From contig CACWKX010000010.1 of NCBI GenBank assembly GCA_902761585.1, forward strand, positions 1 to 64,000: a stretch of DNA of 64,000 nt, in the 5' to 3' direction. Shown piece after piece: positions 35,502 through 45,298 of the stretch (position 1 is its first letter; each line of letters begins with the position of its first letter). Source of the DNA: an uncultured Lachnospiraceae bacterium. GTDB taxonomy: Bacteria; Bacillota; Clostridia; Lachnospirales; Lachnospiraceae. The notes under the pieces were generated by a model. That model was not told the DNA's origin. It was given only the letters and a program-made list of their open reading frames with translations, and made no database searches. The translations under genes were made by a program, and so were the position numbers.

Positions 35502-36026
35502 TCAGGCTTCAGCCGGTGCTGCTTCTGCCGTGCCTTCACCCTCAGGCTGCTTCTCTGCAATCTGCTTGAGGACACGGGCAAAATTCGTGATCGGGGACTG
35601 GATGGATCCAAGCAGTCTTCCGAGCAGCTCGTCTCTGGACGGGATATCAGCGAGTGCCGTTACCCCTGCAGCATCATAGTACTTGCCCTCAGCAACAGCC
35701 GCAACCATGGAAATGGTCGGATTGTTCTTGAGATGCTTCTTGATGATTCTCGCAGCTGCCACCGGGTCGTCCTTGGACACCGCGATCGCGTTTGCACCAA
35801 ACAGGTGCTCGCACAGCGGCTCCAGATCGGTTCCCTGGAACGCACGCTTCATGAGGGTGTTCTTGTAAACCTTGTAGACAACACCGCTCTCACGAAGTTC
35901 CTTGCGGAGAGATGTGTCGCCTGCTACATTGATTCCCAGGTAGTTGACAAGAACAACTGACTGTGCATCCCTGACATTCGCGGAGATCTCATCGACGATG
36001 GGCTGTTTCAGTTCCACTTTTGCCAT
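35502..36026 (-). CDS. rplJ: 50S ribosomal protein L10
   Basis: The 174-residue stalk base protein anchors L7/L12 dimers through its C-terminal helix and binds 23S rRNA with L11. It has the N-terminal [33 protein letters not shown] and [20 protein letters not shown]. It very probably represses its own message through the leader described at 36027-36186. Confidence 0.96.
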
Positions 36027-36186
36027 GAACCATTACCTCCTTCTTGATTGGTAATGACCGCTTCAGAATCAAGAAAAGCCTCCCTGCCTGTGCAGAGAGG
36101 CTGAAAATTCATACGAATTCACACTTCCTCGGCAGGCGCTGATTGCATTATACCCTCGCGGGAACCTGCTGTCTCCGGCAGTCATC
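36027..36186 (-). promoter_or_regulatory. L10 (rplJ) leader with attenuator
   Basis: Between the promoter and rplJ the minus strand has CAGGTTCCCGCGAGGG and CTGCCGAGGAAGTG, matching the conserved core of the described rplJ/L10 leader family in Firmicutes. It is followed by the hairpin AGCCTCCCTGC (36077-36087) with GCAGAGAGGCT (36092-36102) and UUUUCUUG, an intrinsic terminator. L10-L12 complex binding is known to repress such leaders. Confidence 0.8.
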
Positions 36187-36192
36187 TGTTGC

Positions 36193-36221
36193 ATCCTATC
36201 ACAGGAAACTCTGTCTGTCAA
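36193..36221 (-). promoter_or_regulatory. rplJ-rplL promoter
   Basis: Minus-strand -35 TTGACA (36216-36221), 17-base spacer, -10 TAGGAT (36193-36198). It lies 38 bases after the stop of the alpha/beta hydrolase gene, so this promoter restores ribosomal-protein transcription after the inserted island. Confidence 0.82.
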
Positions 36222-36258
36222 CTGCATTCTTTCATACGACATGCTTCCGGTCAGTCTG

Positions 36259-37155
36259 TCAGTCCCTGCCGGTCAGTCCCTGAAAAAATGCGCATTCTTC
36301 ATCATTGCACCTCTGTCCTTCCGCCTCCTGTACGGTCACATGGAACACATGATAAAGCGGGTGCTCCGGGGATCCGAAGATGTGAAGTTCTGATCTCGCC
36401 CCCGCCTTCTCGTACGCACTGTGCAGAAGCGGAGCCTGGCTTTTCAGAAAATCCCCCTCGCAGGTCATGATATAAGCCGGCGGAAAATTCCGGTTTACAA
36501 GGTGCAGCACATCAATTTGTGTTCTGCATGCAAGGCTCTCCGGATGCGGAAGAAGATCTCCCAGCAGCACATCCCTCTCTGCCCACCCATCTTCATTTCC
36601 ATGGTCTTCGAACCCGTACACACCGCAGTTCATTCCGACTCCGCGCAGCCGAAAGCCTTCCGGCTTTTGAAAGGGGAACTGATTCCTGTACGCTTCGTCT
36701 GTCAGGAATGCACAGAACAGCCCTGTGATGTGGGCTCCTGCAGAATCTCCGACTGCAAAGATATTGTTGAGGTCGAAGCCATATTCATCCGCGTGTTTCA
36801 TGATCCATGCAGCAGCCGCGACCGTGTCCTGCAGCTGTGCAGGGAAAGGATGTTCCGGCGCAAGCCTGTAGGAGTAATTGACCACTGCAAATCCCCGCCT
36901 GGCAAGCTCCATCCCGTAATACTGATACAGTTCCTTAGATCCGTAAACCCATCCGCCGCCATGAATCAGCATGATCACCGGCAGTTTTCCTGCCTTATAA
37001 CGATTCCTGTAAACGTCCAGGACATTCCAGTCTCTGTCATCCCCATATGGGATATCATTATATCTTCTGATATATGCAGGTGTTGTCAGACCTGCATCCC
37101 TCGCCTGGTCTCCCTTTGCCCATTCCACTCTCAGACGTTCGCTCACCTCAGACAT
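36259..37155 (-). CDS. Alpha/beta hydrolase (HSL-type esterase)
   Basis: A 298-residue hydrolase of the hormone-sensitive-lipase type. The oxyanion motif HGGGW is at 65-69, the nucleophile elbow GDSAG at 136-140 (Ser138), the acid is probably Asp235 (CEGDFL), and the base His is in the cluster HPLYHVFH near 265-272. Substrate is not determinable; relatives are short-chain or acetyl esterases, which could fit deacetylation of host or plant glycans. No signal peptide. It follows the DUF523 gene by 25 bases and probably shares its promoter. Confidence 0.85.
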   Translation of the reverse strand: MSEVSERLRVEWAKGDQARDAGLTTPAYIRRYNDIPYGDDRDWNVLDVYRNRYKAGKLPVIMLIHGGGWVYGSKELYQYYGMELARRGFAVVNYSYRLAPEHPFPAQLQDTVAAAAWIMKHADEYGFDLNNIFAVGDSAGAHITGLFCAFLTDEAYRNQFPFQKPEGFRLRGVGMNCGVYGFEDHGNEDGWAERDVLLGDLLPHPESLACRTQIDVLHLVNRNFPPAYIMTCEGDFLKSQAPLLHSAYEKAGARSELHIFGSPEHPLYHVFHVTVQEAEGQRCNDEECAFFQGLTGRD

Positions 37156-37180
37156 GACTCAATCCTCCTCGCTCTGCGTT

Positions 37181-37669
37181 TCACTTTCCAGTCTGATAAA
37201 TGCCCGAAGCATGTTGCCGTTCCTGCACATCACTGAGCTTTGCCCGTATCTGCTCCTGATCACCGATATCCAGGACAGAGAATCCATACCTCAGGAGAAG
37301 CTCCGCTGTCACGCCGGCTCCCGCTTCAAGCCTCCCGGAAAAAGACCCGTCATACCGCTGCTTCACCCCACAGCTTGGACTTCTCGACTGAAGGATGATC
37401 AGGTCCGGCTCTTCCTTCCGTGCAGTCGCCAGGCACTTCTCTGCTCCCAGGCGGAAGGCCGCGTCAACGTCCTGACCGTTCCGCGAAATCACCCTCCCAT
37501 TCCGAAGCTCCGACGGCTGCCGGGGCGTCGGGAGCCCGCCAAGCACTTCCGGGCAGACCGCGATCACCTCGTGCCCGGAAAGCAGATTCAAAAGTTCTTC
37601 ATTCCGGTTGTTCCCGCCATTATACTTGCAGTTTTCTCCAATCAGGCAGGCACTCACCATAATTCTCAT
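37181..37669 (-). CDS. DUF523 family protein
   Basis: A 162-residue protein with the DUF523 pattern: MVSACLIGENCKYNGGNNRN, CPEVLGGLPTPRQPSE, and ILQSRSPSCGVKQRYDGSFS. The conserved cysteines (Cys8, Cys14, the CPE Cys and the SPSCG Cys) suggest metal or redox chemistry, but the family has no established function. It is first in a two-gene unit with the hydrolase and has its own promoter (37709-37736). Confidence 0.88.
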   Translation of the reverse strand: MRIMVSACLIGENCKYNGGNNRNEELLNLLSGHEVIAVCPEVLGGLPTPRQPSELRNGRVISRNGQDVDAAFRLGAEKCLATARKEEPDLIILQSRSPSCGVKQRYDGSFSGRLEAGAGVTAELLLRYGFSVLDIGDQEQIRAKLSDVQERQHASGIYQTGK

Positions 37670-37708
37670 AGACAGCCCCTTCCCTGCAGTTTCAACTTCT
37701 ACCCTGTA

Positions 37709-37736
37709 TTATAACGAACAGTCTGCACTCTGCAAA
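37709..37736 (-). promoter_or_regulatory. Promoter of DUF523-hydrolase unit
   Basis: Minus-strand -35 TTGCAG (37731-37736), 16-base spacer, -10 TATAAT (37709-37714). Just upstream (37754-37774) is a CGGGCAG/CTGCCCG inverted repeat that could be an operator or the remains of a terminator. Confidence 0.65.
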
Positions 37737-37837
37737 GTGATCCCGAATCGAATCGGGCAGAGTGAATCTGCCCGACTGGGTATGGTGACTCCGCCATCCC
37801 CTCGTGCACCGCACTCGATGATGAGCAGTCGCCTTCA

Positions 37838-37873
37838 TAAAAACAAGAGGCCTGCAGCATCTGCACGCCTCTT
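37838..37873 (-). terminator. Terminator after the AraC gene
   Basis: A 13-bp stem (37845-37857 with 37861-37873, one mismatch; AAGAGG at the outer end) with UUUUUA following on the RNA strand. It ends the sugar-island transcript. Confidence 0.82.
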
Positions 37874-37946
37874 ATCTCTGTCGCCGGTTCAAAGCCCGGC
37901 CTGGAACCGTCCCATTCGGTATCTTTGTTCCAGTGCCCGCCCGTTT

Positions 37947-38855
37947 TCACTGTATATTCTGCTTTTTCCGGCGGTATTGCTTCGGTGTCAGTCCGATCGA
38001 ATCCCGGAAAACCCTTCCGAAATGACTGCTTTCCTTGAAGCCGCACTTTGCCGCGATCTGGGCAATGCTGTAATTCTCCTCCGTCAGCATTCTGCAAGCC
38101 TGTACAATTCTGCACTGGTTGATATATGCACCTGGCGTTGTATGAAGATATTCCCTGAAGGCCCTGAAACACCCCCGCTCGCTCGTAAAACCAGCTTCGG
38201 CGATCATCTCAGTGGTCATCTTCTTCTCCAGATTCTCATTGATAAACAGCATCATCAGCTTCAGATTACTCTCCATCGACGAGTTCGGTTCCGCACCAGG
38301 GGCTGAAAACACCTTCAGCCGGCAAAGATCCAGCCAGATTTCTGAAAGCCTGTTCCGGATCTCCAGCTCGGAATAGGGGTCTGCAAGATCCATCTGAAAG
38401 GATTCCCTTATCCTGCCGATCGTCCGGCTCTGAGCCCCGCCGTCCGGTATCAGCTTGATGAGCTCGACGCAGGCATTCGATACAACCGGTTCCAGATACA
38501 TGCTGTATATCCGGCTGCCCGGCTTTCCTCCGATCAGATCCGGCCCGAAAAGATGTACATACTGGATTGTATCATGGCTGCCCGAAGCCGAGCGGGTCGA
38601 ATGCATGATATTGGAATTCACAAGTCCCGCCGTTCCCTGCTCGAATACAACTGACCCGGAGGGCGTGTCGCACTCCATCGCACCAGACTCGATGTAGAAC
38701 ATCTCGAGCGCCTTATGCCAGTGCCAGGGCACGAAATCTCCCCCGTAGTTTTCAAAGTGCATGCGGGAAGCCCTGTAAGGAAATTCTTCCGTGTAATCCG
38801 GTATGATTTCTTCCTTATTACCTATTCGGATCTGATTCGAGTAAACGTCTTTCAT
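37947..38855 (-). CDS. AraC-family transcriptional regulator
   Basis: A 302-residue regulator with an N-terminal cupin-like sensor (FVPWHWHKALEMFYIESG, residues about 40-57) and two C-terminal helix-turn-helix motifs in residues 195-302 (TTEMIAEAGFTSERGCFRAF and SIAQIAAKCGFKESSHFGRV). Its start overlaps the stop of the kinase/nucleotidyltransferase gene by 4 bases, so it is translated from the same message and very probably regulates this island in response to a sugar. A candidate target is the inverted repeat at 44182-44216. Confidence 0.93.
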   Translation of the reverse strand: MKDVYSNQIRIGNKEEIIPDYTEEFPYRASRMHFENYGGDFVPWHWHKALEMFYIESGAMECDTPSGSVVFEQGTAGLVNSNIMHSTRSASGSHDTIQYVHLFGPDLIGGKPGSRIYSMYLEPVVSNACVELIKLIPDGGAQSRTIGRIRESFQMDLADPYSELEIRNRLSEIWLDLCRLKVFSAPGAEPNSSMESNLKLMMLFINENLEKKMTTEMIAEAGFTSERGCFRAFREYLHTTPGAYINQCRIVQACRMLTEENYSIAQIAAKCGFKESSHFGRVFRDSIGLTPKQYRRKKQNIQ

Positions 38856-40861
38856 CTCTTCTGGCTGTTTCTCCTGTCTTCCTCTTCCCTGACGATCCGC
38901 CGCATCTCATCCAGATGTTTCTCCATCTCGCTGACAAGCTTGAACTGTGTTCTTGCCCGATCCAGATTCTGCCCATCCCTTCGGATCGCAAAATATCGGT
39001 CCCCGTCCAGGTAATCTGTCAGAAAGCGGACCCCACACTCAAGTGTCATGATGATTGCCCCGAGTGGAAATGTCTCGATCTCCTTTTCCGAGAAATCCGG
39101 CCCGTATTCCAGATATCCCCTGGTAAAGATCCGGAAGCGCTCCAGATCAAGGGTCATCCGGCTCAGATCCCTTTCATCCTCAGCTGCCGTGGCCGCTCCA
39201 AAGCGGATGGCATCTCCGAAATCGTACGCCGCAAGTCCCGGCATCACCGTATCGAGATCAATGACGCACCTTGCCTTCCTTGTTTTCTCATCAAGGAGGA
39301 CATTATTCAGCTTCGTGTCATTGTGCGTCACTCTGAGCGGTAGCGTTCCGTTTTGGCGCAGCCGGCACAGCTCTCCTGCACCTTTTTCCCTGTCCAGCGC
39401 AAACCGGATCTCCTCCGATACGCCGGCCGCCCTGCCAAGCGGATCCCGGCTGACTGTCTCACGAAAAATTCTGTACCGGTTCACAGTATTGTGAAAATCC
39501 GGAATGGTCTCGTGGAGCTCCTCTACAGGGAAATTCTGCATCAGCTTCTGAAAAGCACCGAACGCTGCCGCGCTCTGATAGAAATCATCATTGCTCTCCG
39601 GCGCCTGCAGGCAGATCGTTCCTTCGACGTAGTCATAAACTCTGTAGTATCCTGTCTCATCCCTGTAGTATGAACAGCCATCCAGATCATCGATCAGATT
39701 CAGGCTCCCGATCTGCATCTTCCCGGTCTCATCCGCCTGCTTTTTTGCATTTTTCTGTGCCAGCCGGATGACCCGCTCGATATTCTCCATCAGCGGCGGT
39801 ACATCAAAGACCGTGTCCTTGATCTTCTGCAGAATGTACCGCTTTCCGGAGGTGGTCGTCACAAGATAAGTGGTATTAATGTGTCCCTCTCCATAGAGGC
39901 CGATGGAGACCGGCGCCCCATCGAGCGGGAAATGGTAGGCCGCTGCCGGTTTCATCCAGAGATGCTCCGGATAGATCCCTGCCTGTTTCTTTCGGATGAC
40001 TGCCTGCTTCACCGAGTCCAGATCCGCCGCGTAGGTGACGCCGAACCACTTCTCCTCAGTCGGAATCACGCGGACAGTCGCCTTTTTCTCACGAATCAGC
40101 CTGTCCGGAATCGCAGGCAGAACATACTCACACTTCAGCGGATTTTTATCCAGATTCTCCATTAAGAAAGAGGCAAAATCATGCTGAAACGATTTCAGAA
40201 TTCCGTGCTGGAAGCCCCAGAGGTTCATCGATACGAGCGTCTGCCCCGGAAGAAAATGGAACGTTTTGCCATTGTCTTCTGTATACTCCGCATCCTCGCC
40301 CTTTCTGAAGATCTTCGTGCGCTCGACAATATGGCTCAGATATCCGTTCTCCTCCGTACAGATCCCGCGGGAGACGGAGCCGTTGTCCGTCACGGTATTG
40401 GCAATCCGGTATCCGACCATGGCATGCTCTGACTCTCCCCGCACTTCCTTGAGGAAATCGTATATCTTCTGAAAAGAACTGCTTCCGTAGAAATCGTCCG
40501 CGTTGATCACGGCAAACGGCCCATCGATTGCTTCAGCCGCGCACGCAATCGCATGCGCTGTCCCCCAGGGCTTTGTCCTGCCCTCCGGCACACTGAAGCC
40601 CTCCGGAAGCCGGTCCAGTTCCTGAAACACATACTTCACATCGAAGTACTTTTCAGCATTCCGACCGACCCCATTTTTAAAGTCTTCCTCGATCTGATGC
40701 TTGATGACAAAGACAATCTTTGTAAATCCTGCCCTCCTTGCATCATACAGAGAAAAATCGATGATCTTATGCCCTTCCTCATCCACCGGCGTGATCTGCT
40801 TCAGACCGCCAAACCGCGATCCCATTCCAGCCGCCAGAATCACTAATGCTGGTTCTCTCAC
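38852..40861 (-). CDS. Fused sugar nucleotidyltransferase and NahK-like N-acetylhexosamine 1-kinase
   Basis: A 669-residue two-domain protein. Residues 1-300 are an NTP-transferase: LAAGMGSRFGGLKQ (9-22), INADDFYG (119-126), and RVIPTEEKWFGVTY. Residues about 305-669 are an aminoglycoside-phosphotransferase-fold kinase with GEGHINTTYLV (324-334), catalytic loop HNDTKLNN (513-520) and metal site CVIDLDTVMPG; these match N-acetylhexosamine 1-kinase (NahK) of the lacto-N-biose/galacto-N-biose pathway. Inference: phosphorylation of a hexosamine at C1, then transfer to a nucleotide by one polypeptide. GTG at 40861 has GGAGG 6 bases upstream; the frame opens at 40882. Confidence 0.85.
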   Translation of the reverse strand: MREPALVILAAGMGSRFGGLKQITPVDEEGHKIIDFSLYDARRAGFTKIVFVIKHQIEEDFKNGVGRNAEKYFDVKYVFQELDRLPEGFSVPEGRTKPWGTAHAIACAAEAIDGPFAVINADDFYGSSSFQKIYDFLKEVRGESEHAMVGYRIANTVTDNGSVSRGICTEENGYLSHIVERTKIFRKGEDAEYTEDNGKTFHFLPGQTLVSMNLWGFQHGILKSFQHDFASFLMENLDKNPLKCEYVLPAIPDRLIREKKATVRVIPTEEKWFGVTYAADLDSVKQAVIRKKQAGIYPEHLWMKPAAAYHFPLDGAPVSIGLYGEGHINTTYLVTTTSGKRYILQKIKDTVFDVPPLMENIERVIRLAQKNAKKQADETGKMQIGSLNLIDDLDGCSYYRDETGYYRVYDYVEGTICLQAPESNDDFYQSAAAFGAFQKLMQNFPVEELHETIPDFHNTVNRYRIFRETVSRDPLGRAAGVSEEIRFALDREKGAGELCRLRQNGTLPLRVTHNDTKLNNVLLDEKTRKARCVIDLDTVMPGLAAYDFGDAIRFGAATAAEDERDLSRMTLDLERFRIFTRGYLEYGPDFSEKEIETFPLGAIIMTLECGVRFLTDYLDGDRYFAIRRDGQNLDRARTQFKLVSEMEKHLDEMRRIVREEEDRRNSQKR

Positions 40862-40906
40862 TGTAATCCTCCGCTCCATCACTCAATGATTTTTTCCTAT
40901 CCCGTT

Positions 40907-41764
40907 TTACCCCTTCACTCCTCCGGCCGCAAGTCCGGAAGCCAGATTCTTTTCGATTCCGATGAACAGGATGATGACGGGTATGATTGAGAACAGGGAT
41001 GCGGCAAACAGGTACTGCCATTCCACCATGTTATAACCATTGAAGATATTGATACCGACCGTGAGTGGCTTGACAACATCATCTGAGATCAGGGTCAGCG
41101 CGATGGTATATTCGTTCCAGGCATTGATGAAAACGAAGATCAACGTTGTGACGATGCCAGGTGCAGCAATCGGAAGCAGCACCTTGAACATGCTCTGCAC
41201 TCTTCCGCAGCCGTCGATCCTCGCTGCCTTCTCCATCTCCGGGGAAATCGCGTCAAAGGTTCCCCGCAGCAGCCAGACCGTGAACGCCTGGTTAAACGCC
41301 GCATTGACGAGGATCAACCCAAGCAAGGAATTAACAAGATGGAAGGTCATCATGATCTTGTATATACCGATCACCAGGACAACCGGCGCAAACATCTGGG
41401 ACACAATGACAATGCCCAGGAACACATTCTGTCCTTTGAACTTCATGCGGGTCAGGGCATACGCAGCCGGGATTCCGCACACCATCGCGATGGCAGTCGA
41501 TCCAAGCGCAATGATGATAGAGTTCAGGAAGTAGTTCAGCATCGGTGCCTTGCGCCAGATATCAATCAGATTGCTCCATCTCCACTTGATCGGCAGCAGG
41601 GTTCCGTTGATTGAATAGATCTCTGCCCTGCTCTTGAGCGCGGATGTGAACATTATAAAATAAGGGTAAAGAATCACGACACAGAATGCGATCACCGCAA
41701 TGTAAAGCAGAATGCGGAGGACGAGTTTTTTCCCCGTCAATGCTTTCTTTCCTGTATTTTTCAT
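40907..41764 (-). CDS. Sugar ABC transporter permease, MalG type
   Basis: A 285-residue inner-membrane permease with six predicted helices. The EAA loop that contacts the ATPase is EMEKAARIDGCGRVQSMFKV. It belongs to the carbohydrate-uptake-1 (CUT1) type. It begins directly at the stop of the other permease gene (TAA then ATG) and pairs with it. No ATPase gene lies in the island, so a shared MsmX/UgpC-type ATPase encoded elsewhere is presumably used. Confidence 0.94.
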   Translation of the reverse strand: MKNTGKKALTGKKLVLRILLYIAVIAFCVVILYPYFIMFTSALKSRAEIYSINGTLLPIKWRWSNLIDIWRKAPMLNYFLNSIIIALGSTAIAMVCGIPAAYALTRMKFKGQNVFLGIVIVSQMFAPVVLVIGIYKIMMTFHLVNSLLGLILVNAAFNQAFTVWLLRGTFDAISPEMEKAARIDGCGRVQSMFKVLLPIAAPGIVTTLIFVFINAWNEYTIALTLISDDVVKPLTVGINIFNGYNMVEWQYLFAASLFSIIPVIILFIGIEKNLASGLAAGGVKG

Positions 41765-42646
41765 TTACCTCTCCTTCTGTCCTCTTAACGTAAAGACCAT
41801 ATACACACTTGCGCAGACCAGGAGAATCAGAAAGCCGATGACCGAAATGGCTGCAGCCTGCCCCTGCTTGCCGTTGTAAAATGCGAGCTTGTACAGATAG
41901 GTGACAAGAGTATCCGTTCTGTTCGCCGGATCTCCCTTGCTCATGGTCCAGATAATCGGAAACGAATTGAATACATAGATAATATTCAGTACCGTAGAGA
42001 CCGTCAGCTGCGGGCGAACCAGTGGAATGGTAATGTGGAAAAGCTTCTGCCAGTAGTTGGCTCCGTCTGCCGTAGCTGCCTCATAGAAGGATTCATCAAT
42101 TCCCTGAAGTCCCGACAGGACACAGAATGTGACAAACGGAATGGTGACGAAGATTCCGACAAAGCATTCCCAAGCAAAGTAGGCGCCCGGTGTCGGAGTC
42201 CAGTTGATATTCGTTGAAATAATACCCAGTTTTTTCAGCAGCGTATTGAGCGTGCCATAATCCGTATTGATGATGAAATTCCAGACACTTGCCTGGATCA
42301 CAAGCGTAGTCGCCCACGGGAAGACCACGATGGCCCTCGCAATCTTTCTTCCCCTGAACTCATTGTTCAGAAGCAATGCCAGGATAAAACCGACCACAGT
42401 CGATACGACAACAACGACAACGGTCCACACAACGGTATTCCACAGGACAATCTTAAAAGCCGGTTTTCCGGTCGCAGCGATAAAGTTGTCAAATCCCGTG
42501 AATCCCTTGACAATTCCAGCCCTTGTAACCTGGCTGAACGCCATCCTGAAAACCATGCCGATCGGCAGCGCGATGAATAAAGCCATGAGAACGCAGCTGG
42601 GCAGGATCCAGATATATGGTTCGATTAATCGATATTTCTTTTTCAT
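41765..42646 (-). CDS. Sugar ABC transporter permease, MalF type
   Basis: A 293-residue six-helix permease whose EAA loop is EAATADGANYWQKLFHITIP. The frame remains open to 42769, but residues before 42646 overlap the intergenic hairpin, and AGAGG lies 7 bases before the ATG at 42646. Homologs start with the same MKKKYRLIEPYIW type N-terminus. It follows the binding-protein gene and the stable hairpin at 42693-42723. Confidence 0.93.
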   Translation of the reverse strand: MKKKYRLIEPYIWILPSCVLMALFIALPIGMVFRMAFSQVTRAGIVKGFTGFDNFIAATGKPAFKIVLWNTVVWTVVVVVVSTVVGFILALLLNNEFRGRKIARAIVVFPWATTLVIQASVWNFIINTDYGTLNTLLKKLGIISTNINWTPTPGAYFAWECFVGIFVTIPFVTFCVLSGLQGIDESFYEAATADGANYWQKLFHITIPLVRPQLTVSTVLNIIYVFNSFPIIWTMSKGDPANRTDTLVTYLYKLAFYNGKQGQAAAISVIGFLILLVCASVYMVFTLRGQKER

Positions 42647-42692
42647 TGACATCCTCTGTTTTCTGTACTCGGTTGACAGGACCTTGCTGCGG

Positions 42693-42723
42693 AGACAGGC
42701 CGGATGAAGCATCCGGCCTGTCT
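42693..42723 (-). other. Stable hairpin between binding protein and permease genes
   Basis: A perfect 13-bp stem (42693-42705 with 42711-42723) and a 5-base loop, with no U-tract. Such structures downstream of a binding-protein gene commonly protect its mRNA and give it more protein than the permeases. Confidence 0.6.
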
Positions 42724-42844
42724 TCTCATTGTACATCTGATGAAGAGCCGAAGAGTTGCTGCAGGCCATGTCTGAAAAATGGCCGGCCTGCCGGTCGTTC
42801 AGGATTCCCTGACTGATCAGTACATGGGCACCGGTCCAAGATGG

Positions 42845-44083
42845 TCAGCCCGCGATTTCGCTCTGGAGACTGTCCAGAAGTCCCTTGACATCCTCACCCA
42901 GAAGCGCATTCTGTTCAACATCGATGACACCCTGCTTGACATCTGCCCATTCAGCCTTTGCTGTCGGATAGAACTTGGAAGAACCGACGATGTCAACCCA
43001 TGCCGCCATACTTTCATCTGCCTTTGCAATGATCTCGCCGCCTGTCTTGGTTGCAGGAAGGAAGCCCTCCATCTGAACCCAGTCAGAATAGCGCTGGTCA
43101 TCATAAAAGTAATCGAAGAACGTGCTGATGGCTTTCAGCTTTTCGTCCGAGTATCCATTGTCAAAGCACATGAAACGATCCATAACGCCCGCTGATACAG
43201 AGGTATCGGTATTGGTCGGAATCGGAGCAACTTCGTAATTGATGGAGTAGCCGCCTTCCTTCAGGTATGCCGGAATGGAATTTGGTCCGATCATCATCGC
43301 AATCTTGCCTGCTCCGAACATATCCTGGAGATCATATCTGGTTTCATTCGCAGGGTCCGTATTGGTATAGCCGTCCTTGATCAGTCCGATCTCAAACTCA
43401 ACAGCCTCGACATTCTTGTCGCTGTTCAGCGCCCAGTTATTGTCGTCATCAACAAAACCGCCGCCGTTGTTCCAGGTATAATAGGCAAAGGCTGCCTGAC
43501 CTTCATCCGTCGTCAGGTCAATCCCCCACGGATAAACCTCTCCGTTGTAATGATCCTTGATCGCTTTGCACACGTTCTTCAGATCATCCCAGGTCTTCGG
43601 AGCCTCCACCCCGACTTCCTTCAGAATGTCCGCGTTATAGTACATCGCCCGTGCAGAAGCCAGATCCGGAATCGCCCAGACCGTTCCGTCCACAACCGAC
43701 TGGTCAAGGAAGGATTCATACATCTTGGAGTAGGTTTCCTCCGAGACATAATCCTTGGCAGGAAGAAGAAGTCCGTCTGCCTGGTAGTCGGCAAAGACGT
43801 CAATATTCAGGATATCCGGCGCCTGATTGTTTGCAATCCTGGTGTTGACTGCCGTATAGATGTCGTTCCATGATACAACATCCACGTTGAGATCAATGTT
43901 CGGATTGTCCTTCTCAAAATCCTTCTCAAACCCCTTCCACCAGTTTGCAGTCTGCTGACCGTACTGGGCAGCAATCACGCTGATCGAAATCTTGTCAGAA
44001 GACTCCGCGTATGCCGACCCCGCTACCATGCCGGCTACCGCTGATCCGAGTACAAGACCTGCAGTCAACTTTCTCATGTTCAT
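42845..44083 (-). CDS. Extracellular sugar-binding protein of ABC transporter
   Basis: A 412-residue family-1 solute-binding protein. Residues 1-26 are a signal peptide (MNMRKLTAGLVLGSAVAGMV, then AGSAYA) with a signal-peptidase-I site AYA-ES. There is no lipobox cysteine, which is unusual for a Gram-positive binding protein. The mature part has WWKGFEKDFEKDNPNIDLNV, APDILNIDVFADYQADGLL, and MFGAGKIAMMIGPNS, typical of CUT1 proteins. A strong promoter lies at 44125-44153. Ligand unknown; the neighbouring kinase suggests an N-acetylhexosamine-containing sugar. Confidence 0.94.
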   Translation of the reverse strand: MNMRKLTAGLVLGSAVAGMVAGSAYAESSDKISISVIAAQYGQQTANWWKGFEKDFEKDNPNIDLNVDVVSWNDIYTAVNTRIANNQAPDILNIDVFADYQADGLLLPAKDYVSEETYSKMYESFLDQSVVDGTVWAIPDLASARAMYYNADILKEVGVEAPKTWDDLKNVCKAIKDHYNGEVYPWGIDLTTDEGQAAFAYYTWNNGGGFVDDDNNWALNSDKNVEAVEFEIGLIKDGYTNTDPANETRYDLQDMFGAGKIAMMIGPNSIPAYLKEGGYSINYEVAPIPTNTDTSVSAGVMDRFMCFDNGYSDEKLKAISTFFDYFYDDQRYSDWVQMEGFLPATKTGGEIIAKADESMAAWVDIVGSSKFYPTAKAEWADVKQGVIDVEQNALLGEDVKGLLDSLQSEIAG

Positions 44084-44124
44084 AGCAATTCCTCCTTTTT
44101 TCTTTGCCAGATTCTGTTGTTTTT

Positions 44125-44153
44125 ATGGTACAGGATCCGGATAATCCCGTCAA
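44125..44153 (-). promoter_or_regulatory. Promoter of the sugar-uptake island
   Basis: Minus-strand -35 TTGACG (44148-44153), 17-base spacer, -10 TACCAT (44125-44130), with AAGGAGG before the binding-protein ATG. The non-consensus -10 and the upstream inverted repeat fit an activated promoter. Confidence 0.72.
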
Positions 44154-44181
44154 TATCTGTATTGATAAAATGCTAATAAAT

Positions 44182-44216
44182 GGCAGTATTGTGCCAAATA
44201 ATATAGTGATACTGCC
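44182..44216. promoter_or_regulatory. Inverted repeat, candidate regulator site
   Basis: GGCAGTAT (44182-44189) and ATACTGCC (44209-44216), perfect 8-base arms 27 bases apart centre to centre, ending 29 bases upstream of the -35 box. The position suits an activator such as the island AraC protein. Confidence 0.5.
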
Positions 44217-44440
44217 TCGCATTTACTACATTTGATCGTGTTAATCGGTTATCTTGTTCATATTTAAGGCCTTTTATCGGATCTGTTTGTGCATATTATG
44301 CATTTATTGCTGATTTGAGTTGGAAACTGCCCATCATTGAATGATAAAATACTGTCATATGTAAGAATTACGAAATCGATTAATTCTGTCAAAGAAAAAG
44401 GACATGGCACAAAAGAAGGAGATTCCGGAGATCAAGCGTA
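44217..44440. other. AT-rich non-coding stretch
   Basis: No gene seen. It contains a 13-base palindrome TGCATATTATGCA at about 44290-44302 and a minus-strand TTGACA near 44387-44392 without a good -10. Confidence 0.4.
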
Positions 44441-44447
44441 TTGAGAA

Positions 44448-44552
44448 TTGATATTAAATACATCAAGCCAGGCTTTCGGTAGAACGTTTTCGTATCTTTC
44501 CGTTATGGCATCTTTGTTCACGATGCCATATTTTGCCACGAACTGCCAAATG
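44448..44552 (-). pseudogene. Possible gene remnant (C-terminal fragment)
   Basis: On the minus strand from the rplA terminator down to a TGA at about 44448, one frame stays open and reads protein-like: FVAKYGIVNKDAITERYEN, then a segment with LPKAWLDVF, then a stop. There is no start codon or ribosome binding site because the upstream part is the terminator. It may be chance or a relic left by the island insertion. No family recognised. Confidence 0.25.
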
Positions 44553-44582
44553 AAAAAGGGCAGTCCGTGAGGGCTGCCCTTT
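44553..44582 (-). terminator. Terminator of rplK-rplA
   Basis: AAAGGGCAG (44555-44563) pairs with CTGCCCTTT (44574-44582), and the RNA strand continues UUUUUCAUUUGG. It closes the ribosomal transcript before the inserted sugar island. Confidence 0.88.
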
Positions 44583-44605
44583 CCTGCGATCTATCTATTG
44601 CTGTT

Positions 44606-45298
44606 TCACGCGAACTTAAGCGGGTTCAGCTTGATGCCCGGCCCCATTGTGGAAGTAAGCGTGACACTCTTCAGGTACTGCCCCTTCAGAGTGGACGGTC
44701 TTGCCTTGACAACTGCTTCCATCAGCGTCTGGAAGTTTTCCTTCAGCTGCTCTTCTGTAAAGGAAGCCTTCCCGACCGGTACATGGATGATATTTGCCTT
44801 GTCCAGTCTGTACTCGATCTTACCGGCTTTAATATCCTTAATCGCCTTTGCGACATCCATGGTAACAGTTCCAGCCTTCGGGTTCGGCATGAGGCCCTTC
44901 GGTCCGAGGACACGGCCCAGGCGTCCGACAACCCCCATCATGTCCGGTGTTGCGACGACAACATCGAAATCGAGCCATCCTTCATTCTGAATCTTCGGAA
45001 TCAGCTCCTGTCCTCCGACAAAATCAGCTCCCGCTGCCTTTGCCTCGTCAACCTTTTCATTCTTTGCGAACACAAGGACGCGAACCTTCTTGCCGGTTCC
45101 TGCCGGAAGGACAACTGCCCCTCTGATCTGCTGATCAGCATGGCGTCCGTCGCAGCCGGTTCTGATATGGCATTCAACTGTCTCGTCAAACCCTGCGGAT
45201 GCAACCTTCTTTACCAGAGCGACAGCCTCGTCGACATCGTACAGCTTTGAGCGGTCAACCAGCTTTGCTGCGTCCTGATATTTCTTACCTCTCTTCAT
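44606..45298 (-). CDS. rplA: 50S ribosomal protein L1
   Basis: A 230-residue L1-stalk protein that releases deacylated tRNA. It has [20 protein letters not shown], the hinge [20 protein letters not shown] and [14 protein letters not shown] at the end. The open frame extends to 45370, but AGGAGG precedes the ATG at 45298. In other bacteria L1 represses rplKA. Normally rplJ follows; here a terminator and the sugar island do. Confidence 0.97.

Follow-up and report, generated by a model that had tools for sequence, protein, structure and literature searches.

Can one bacterial protein both phosphorylate a salvaged N-acetylhexosamine (HexNAc) and activate it to a nucleotide sugar? The question is raised by a gene in a 64,000-nt stretch of DNA from an uncultured Lachnospiraceae bacterium (assembly GCA_902761585.1, contig CACWKX010000010.1, positions 1 to 64,000; hereafter the window), which joins a nucleotidyltransferase (NT) to a kinase of the NahK type. 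Here we report a computational analysis of this fusion. It is likely that the one protein makes UDP-HexNAc from salvaged HexNAc by a predicted kinase step followed by a transferase step; the sequence support consists of both domains with intact motifs, same-strand genes for a transporter and a regulator, further proteins of the genome (GalE, NagA-like and NagB-like) encoded away from this locus, and repeated fusion in other bacteria.

The fused gene and its two halves

The fusion is read from the minus strand (Table 1), the plus-strand translation of 38852..40861 holding five stops. In the open reading frame listing the frame extends from 40882 to 38852 and encodes 676 residues, whose numbering is followed here. 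The start at GTG 40861 (669 residues), which the preliminary description had used, is favoured because CGGAGG lies six bases upstream and the starts of homologues align there. The same description had proposed one polypeptide joining an NTP-transferase to a NahK-like kinase, and this was confirmed by the Pfam domains NTP_transferase and APH in a single unbroken frame. All the motifs it quoted are present; an alignment of 17 fusions shows no variation at the core positions of these motifs, although some letters vary. A fusion created by a sequencing error or frameshift was rejected, given an unbroken copy, 99% identical, in a sister genome (G1005) and many fused homologues. The window's genome (G000) and G1005 are not one assembly, because neighbouring genes differ by 0-11%.

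Table 1. Positions of the fusion, its parts and the genes beside it in the window
Feature	Position	Strand	Basis or remark
Fusion coding sequence, nucleotidyltransferase–NahK-type kinase	38852..40861	-	669 aa from GTG 40861; open frame to GTG 40882
CGGAGG, Shine-Dalgarno-like (40873-40868), and 6-nt spacer before GTG 40861	40862..40873	-	sequence; putative role
N-terminal segment of the fusion, ahead of the junction	39956..40861	-	
GMGSRFGGLKQ signature, residues 19-29	40796..40828	-	alignment
NADD motif, residues 127-130	40493..40504	-	alignment
Junction, residues 310-313	39944..39955	-	without long linker; relatives have a stop and an intergenic gap here
NahK-type HexNAc 1-kinase half (predicted), residues 314-666	38885..39943	-	Pfam, alignment, fold comparison
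HNDTKLNN loop, residues 520-527	39302..39325	-	invariant in 17 fusions
DLD motif, residues 542-544	39251..39259	-	alignment
AraC-family regulator	37947..38855	-	Pfam
Sugar ABC permease (BPD_transp_1)	40907..41764	-	Pfam
Sugar ABC permease (BPD_transp_1)	41765..42769	-	Pfam
Extracellular solute-binding protein (SBP_bac_1)	42845..44083	-	Pfam

The APH domain covers residues 330-568. When the kinase half was compared by structure, as had been proposed, it showed the APH fold with NahK of Bifidobacterium longum (N-acetylhexosamine 1-kinase; 4ocj, 4wh1) as its clear nearest solved relative, with conserved motifs and about 44% identity over this half. Choline and aminoglycoside kinases, named beforehand as possible substrate classes, were rejected as nearest kin. 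H334, D522, N527, D542, R619 and Y630 align to NahK positions and are invariant in the 17 fusions; E332 and T337 of GEGHINTTY vary. The HNDTKLNN loop is presumably catalytic and DLD presumably binds metal; the NahK-aligned residues would have catalytic and metal roles. Overall, this half is very probably a HexNAc 1-kinase. Another APH-family HexNAc 1-kinase, BT4240 of Bacteroides thetaiotaomicron, is a kinase only, unlike the fusion; in the portions consulted of its report it favours N-acetylgalactosamine (GalNAc) about 275-fold over N-acetylglucosamine (GlcNAc) and is required for GalNAc use (PMC11992087). A term search of that report's main text gave no 'nucleotidyl', 'uridylyl' or 'UDP-GalNAc'.

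The NTP_transferase domain (PF00483) lies at residues 14-231 and scores 41.5 bits against a cut-off of 21.2. Signature residues of GalU/RmlA-type pyrophosphorylases (GxGxR, K and the Asp in NADD) are present in motifs that are invariant in the aligned fusions, and we take NADD to hold the metal-binding Asp of related pyrophosphorylases. UTP enzymes are the sole kind among the named profile-search matches below E 0.05, and the closest named relatives act on glucose-1-phosphate. This half is probably a UTP-dependent HexNAc-1-phosphate transferase. Its relative 3pnn from Porphyromonas gingivalis, titled 'conserved domain protein' / 'glycosyltransferase', is a stand-alone chain, unlike the fusion, and its record titles name no substrate. 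The window's genome encodes another nucleotidyltransferase of this family (44%) that stands alone (G000:C6:19825-20757, corresponding to L002 1501-2433 and L083 9826-10770), and the 20 kb fetched around it gave no NahK-like match; copies of similar identity (42-47%) are listed for 13 of 19 members of the genus, counting G000.

Distribution and recurrence of the fusion

Because the homologue search was restricted to lengths of 0.55-1.75 times that of the query, it favours fusions; both Pfam domains occur in 117 of the best 120 of 964 homologues. The window's protein is 57-66% identical to the nearest group of fusions, and the genome surveys of genus, family, order and class list no full-length match in that range outside the window's own pair. 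These surveys answer an earlier call to look for the same fusion elsewhere: it recurs and is rare, with full-length stop-free matches in 2/19 genomes of the genus, 5/299 of the family (one cut by a contig edge), 3/392 of the order and 1/391 of the class, where the surveys share genomes and the last two were run at a strict cut-off, under which partial or distant fusions may go unnoticed. Among the best 80 of 587 loci from named genome contigs, with counts limited to the fetched DNA, 37 carry both domains, 24 the nucleotidyltransferase only and 19 the kinase only. Just one of the 37, L003 (Clostridium sp. MCC353), is fused, and in L070 the two domains lie 6.7 kb apart. L038, in which one alignment extended past the nucleotidyltransferase, was rejected as a fusion: its frame ends after the nucleotidyltransferase domain and is followed by galE.

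Domain trees were built with 30 representatives of 118 proteins, after omission of P0003, whose N-terminus is odd, and P0050, which is short at that end, and include long-branch rows. On the kinase-domain tree (113 rows, 35 labelled 'NT–kinase fusion') the label needs 8 changes, at least 6 of them forced by starred branches; on the nucleotidyltransferase-domain tree (98 rows, retaining 5 of the 24 lone nucleotidyltransferases) it needs 6, at least 3 forced. Such changes can be gains or losses. Forcing 16 fusions into one clade costs 308 log-likelihood units in the approximately unbiased (AU) test (p-AU 3.1e-9, 52 chosen rows), and the reverse order, kinase first and then nucleotidyltransferase, is found in P0070 (10 member sequences) and P0098 (469). 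These results point to recurrent fusion of functional partners: the two domains appear to have become linked on more than one occasion, also in opposite order. The source name of P0036, 'Ser/Thr protein kinase RdoA (MazF antagonist)/NDP-sugar pyrophosphorylase family protein', is misleading and may hide this fusion family.

A known system that works in a similar way is the bifunctional FKP (L-fucokinase/GDP-fucose pyrophosphorylase), in which a single chain likewise phosphorylates a sugar taken up by salvage and charges it with a nucleotide. FKP carries a GHMP-type kinase, whereas in the present fusion the kinase is of the APH type and the transferase resembles UTP enzymes; a Pfam scan of the fusion at E 0.001 found APH and no GHMP family. 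As far as the accessible text of PMC12732313 goes, a single fusion event is favoured for FKP, whereas the NT–NahK pair would stem from several, in both orders. The zebrafish glucuronokinase/putative pyrophosphorylase, in the excerpt of PMC3938481 that we used, similarly combines a kinase and a putative pyrophosphorylase in UDP-sugar salvage, for a different sugar and in a different organism. A literature search by title and the start of the abstract, with most subscription journals outside its scope, retrieved FKP, another fusion, and no description of the NT–kinase fusion.

Proposed function and alternative readings

In the proposed pathway the solute-binding protein and permeases would import HexNAc, either free or as a small glycoside. 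The kinase half would use ATP to phosphorylate C1 of the sugar, which is likely GalNAc and may be GlcNAc. The nucleotidyltransferase half would then likely use UTP to convert the HexNAc-1-phosphate to UDP-HexNAc and pyrophosphate. GalE would interconvert UDP-GalNAc and UDP-GlcNAc, and UDP-GlcNAc would join the wall pool or be degraded through NagA and NagB. The most likely effect of the fusion is that both activities are present in equal amounts, and a handover of the intermediate between the active sites is possible. The pathway would offer a UTP-driven alternative to GalT for amino sugars of mucin and milk glycans. It would also give a predicted substrate to a common family of nucleotidyltransferases, none having been found assigned to it; of the 299 genomes surveyed in the window's bacterial family, 216 match the fusion, through one or the other half, at E 1e-30 or better. 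A single protein that catalyses both steps from HexNAc to UDP-HexNAc might find use in glycan synthesis, and a fusion recurring in two orders would be a natural experiment on whether flux benefits when consecutive enzymes are joined.

In bifidobacteria NahK and the uridylyltransferase are separate proteins, as the preliminary description had stated; in the sections consulted of PMC8106489 NahK, likewise separate, works with GalT and GalE, whereas here the kinase is fused behind a nucleotidyltransferase. Some relatives have genes of the lacto-N-biose/galacto-N-biose (LNB/GNB) route as neighbours. The window's genome encodes GalE (G000:C13:3818-4825, 75%), GalT and a NagA-like protein adjoining a NagB-family protein, and GH112 was not detected in it. 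The window's transporter most closely resembles its counterparts in L010 (GalE–NT–kinase–solute-binding protein–permease–permease), L073 (the same, then NagB–NagA) and the lone-kinase loci L022, L031 and L041, and the fetched DNA of these five gave no GH112 match. The window's enzyme is therefore placed in the uptake and activation of HexNAc released by other organisms or enzymes, not in LNB/GNB phosphorolysis. The reading first suggested for this gene, a compact salvage route for host-glycan amino sugars, is partly supported.

Several observations weigh against the proposal. Thymidylyltransferases (RmlA) are among the fold neighbours of the nucleotidyltransferase half with equal Z, so that its nucleotide may be dTTP; the named profile hits are UTP enzymes, but the fold comparison places dTTP enzymes level with them. 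In 35 of the 37 two-domain loci the pair is two neighbouring genes, with 20-159 nt between the matched domains and a stop or frame change, which argues that fusion is not required for function. A GH112 query matched neither G000 (a 98% complete draft, in which absence is not absolute) nor G1005, and did match G624 (its source), G113, G126 and G532. A class II GalT, over the cut-off and outside the operon (G000:C14:15033-16538), could also handle the 1-phosphate, and the seven proteins scanned around the fusion include no glycosidase or epimerase (galE). In the available portion of a Roseburia study on milk sugars N-acetylhexosamines are routed to GlcNAc-6-phosphate, and a term search shows no kinase/nucleotidyltransferase pair (PMC7335108); the searched text of that paper and of PMC13056567 held no NahK, 'nucleotidyl', 'uridylyl' or 'pyrophosphorylase'.

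Only tentatively would we extend the proposal to the whole 3pnn-type family, widespread but without an assigned function, as a dedicated gut-bacterial UTP:HexNAc-1-phosphate uridylyltransferase, independent of GalT and welded by selection to its NahK partner repeatedly and in both orders. The reason for this selection would be that one active site delivers HexNAc-1-phosphate to the other.

Pyrophosphorylases of the GalU/RmlA kind are reversible, and the second half might mainly run backwards: after the kinase half has made HexNAc-1-phosphate and GalE has epimerised UDP-GalNAc, it would release GlcNAc-1-phosphate from UDP-GlcNAc by pyrophosphorolysis, in a GalNAc-to-GlcNAc-1-phosphate cycle feeding NagA/NagB. 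NagA-like and NagB-like proteins in the genome itself and in the L073 cluster fit such a cycle, as does galE (at least 60%, within 200 nt, same strand) beside 23/61 nucleotidyltransferase loci versus 0/19 kinase-only loci, although it requires a supply of pyrophosphate. We consider it somewhat unlikely, and an extension more than an alternative, because one active site can serve both directions.

The fusion could also be accidental, a neutral loss of the stop between neighbouring genes without benefit. A single tblastn alignment spans both genes in 49 loci (same-genome repeats included), of which 40 share the frame with a stop at the junction, so that one small change suffices for fusion; most sampled pairs are unfused. 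The nine junctions without a stop are those of the window's gene, G1005, G253/L003 (twice), G113, G018, G005 (contig edge), G624 and G532. The G005 case (L138), also the contig-edge case in the family count, lies on a contig of 11 kb on which the same genes occur as partial copies in inverted orientation; it is probably an artefact of assembly and was put aside. Read-through without benefit is nevertheless unlikely, as fusions recur in several lineages and both orders and are kept over deep divergence (to the 57-66% identity given above).

Slightly less likely still, the halves could serve the two products of one disaccharide, the kinase taking HexNAc and the nucleotidyltransferase making UDP-galactose from galactose-1-phosphate released by GH112. 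GH112 is found in 13/80 loci (identified by Pfam on L018 and L139); this count and that for galE are lower bounds, because contigs end. It lies directly upstream of the fusion in the single-contig genome G624 (solute-binding protein, two permeases, GH112, fusion), and the galE neighbours and the glucose-1-phosphate relatives would suit such a branch. The window's genome, however, keeps the fusion without detected GH112 and already has a class II GalT for galactose-1-phosphate, and in Bacteroidota the pair lies near GH20 in 3/6 loci and GH112 was found in 0/6. Use of dTTP (RmlA-like) or another NTP for a surface-glycan sugar is improbable, since the named profile hits are UTP enzymes, the neighbouring GalE works on UDP-sugars, and the neighbours identified, which are not all of them, are mainly uptake, degradation and regulator genes.

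The operon and its origin

The transporter genes lie upstream of the fusion and the regulator downstream, all on the same strand, and the fusion's TGA overlaps the ATG of the AraC-family regulator (ATGA). The permease at 41765..42769 has relatives 62-73% identical beside NT/kinase in L010 and L073 and beside the kinase in L022, L031 and L041, and all five loci also hold relatives of the solute-binding protein, 54-66% identical.

In Clostridium sp. MCC353 (G253) the genes ahead of the fusion encode, among others, a sulfatase, a class II aldolase and a SIS-domain protein. In G113 and G532, genomes from two different families, the fusion is preceded by a Gfo/Idh/MocA oxidoreductase (L137 7623-8906, L140 11240-12508); a GH109-like identity is unsupported, the G113 copy matching oxidoreductases/dehydrogenases among the listed PDB hits at E 1e-5. 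Two Clostridia loci encode, immediately after the kinase, a protein of 460-476 aa (L022 11011-12438, without a Pfam match at E 1e-5, and L029 11063-12442) that is a possible further pathway member.

In 12 of the 15 other genus genomes with an rplJ match, rplA lies 0.3-0.65 kb upstream of rplJ, the remaining three having no rplA within the fetched stretch. G000 and G1005 hold between these genes an 8.5-kb block of transporter, fusion, regulator, DUF523-type gene and esterase. This arrangement, together with presence in 2/19 genus genomes, points to an acquired block. In the window (36026-44606) the sugar operon, the DUF523-type gene (2-thiouracil desulfurase Pfam) and the esterase split the rplKA-rplJL cluster.
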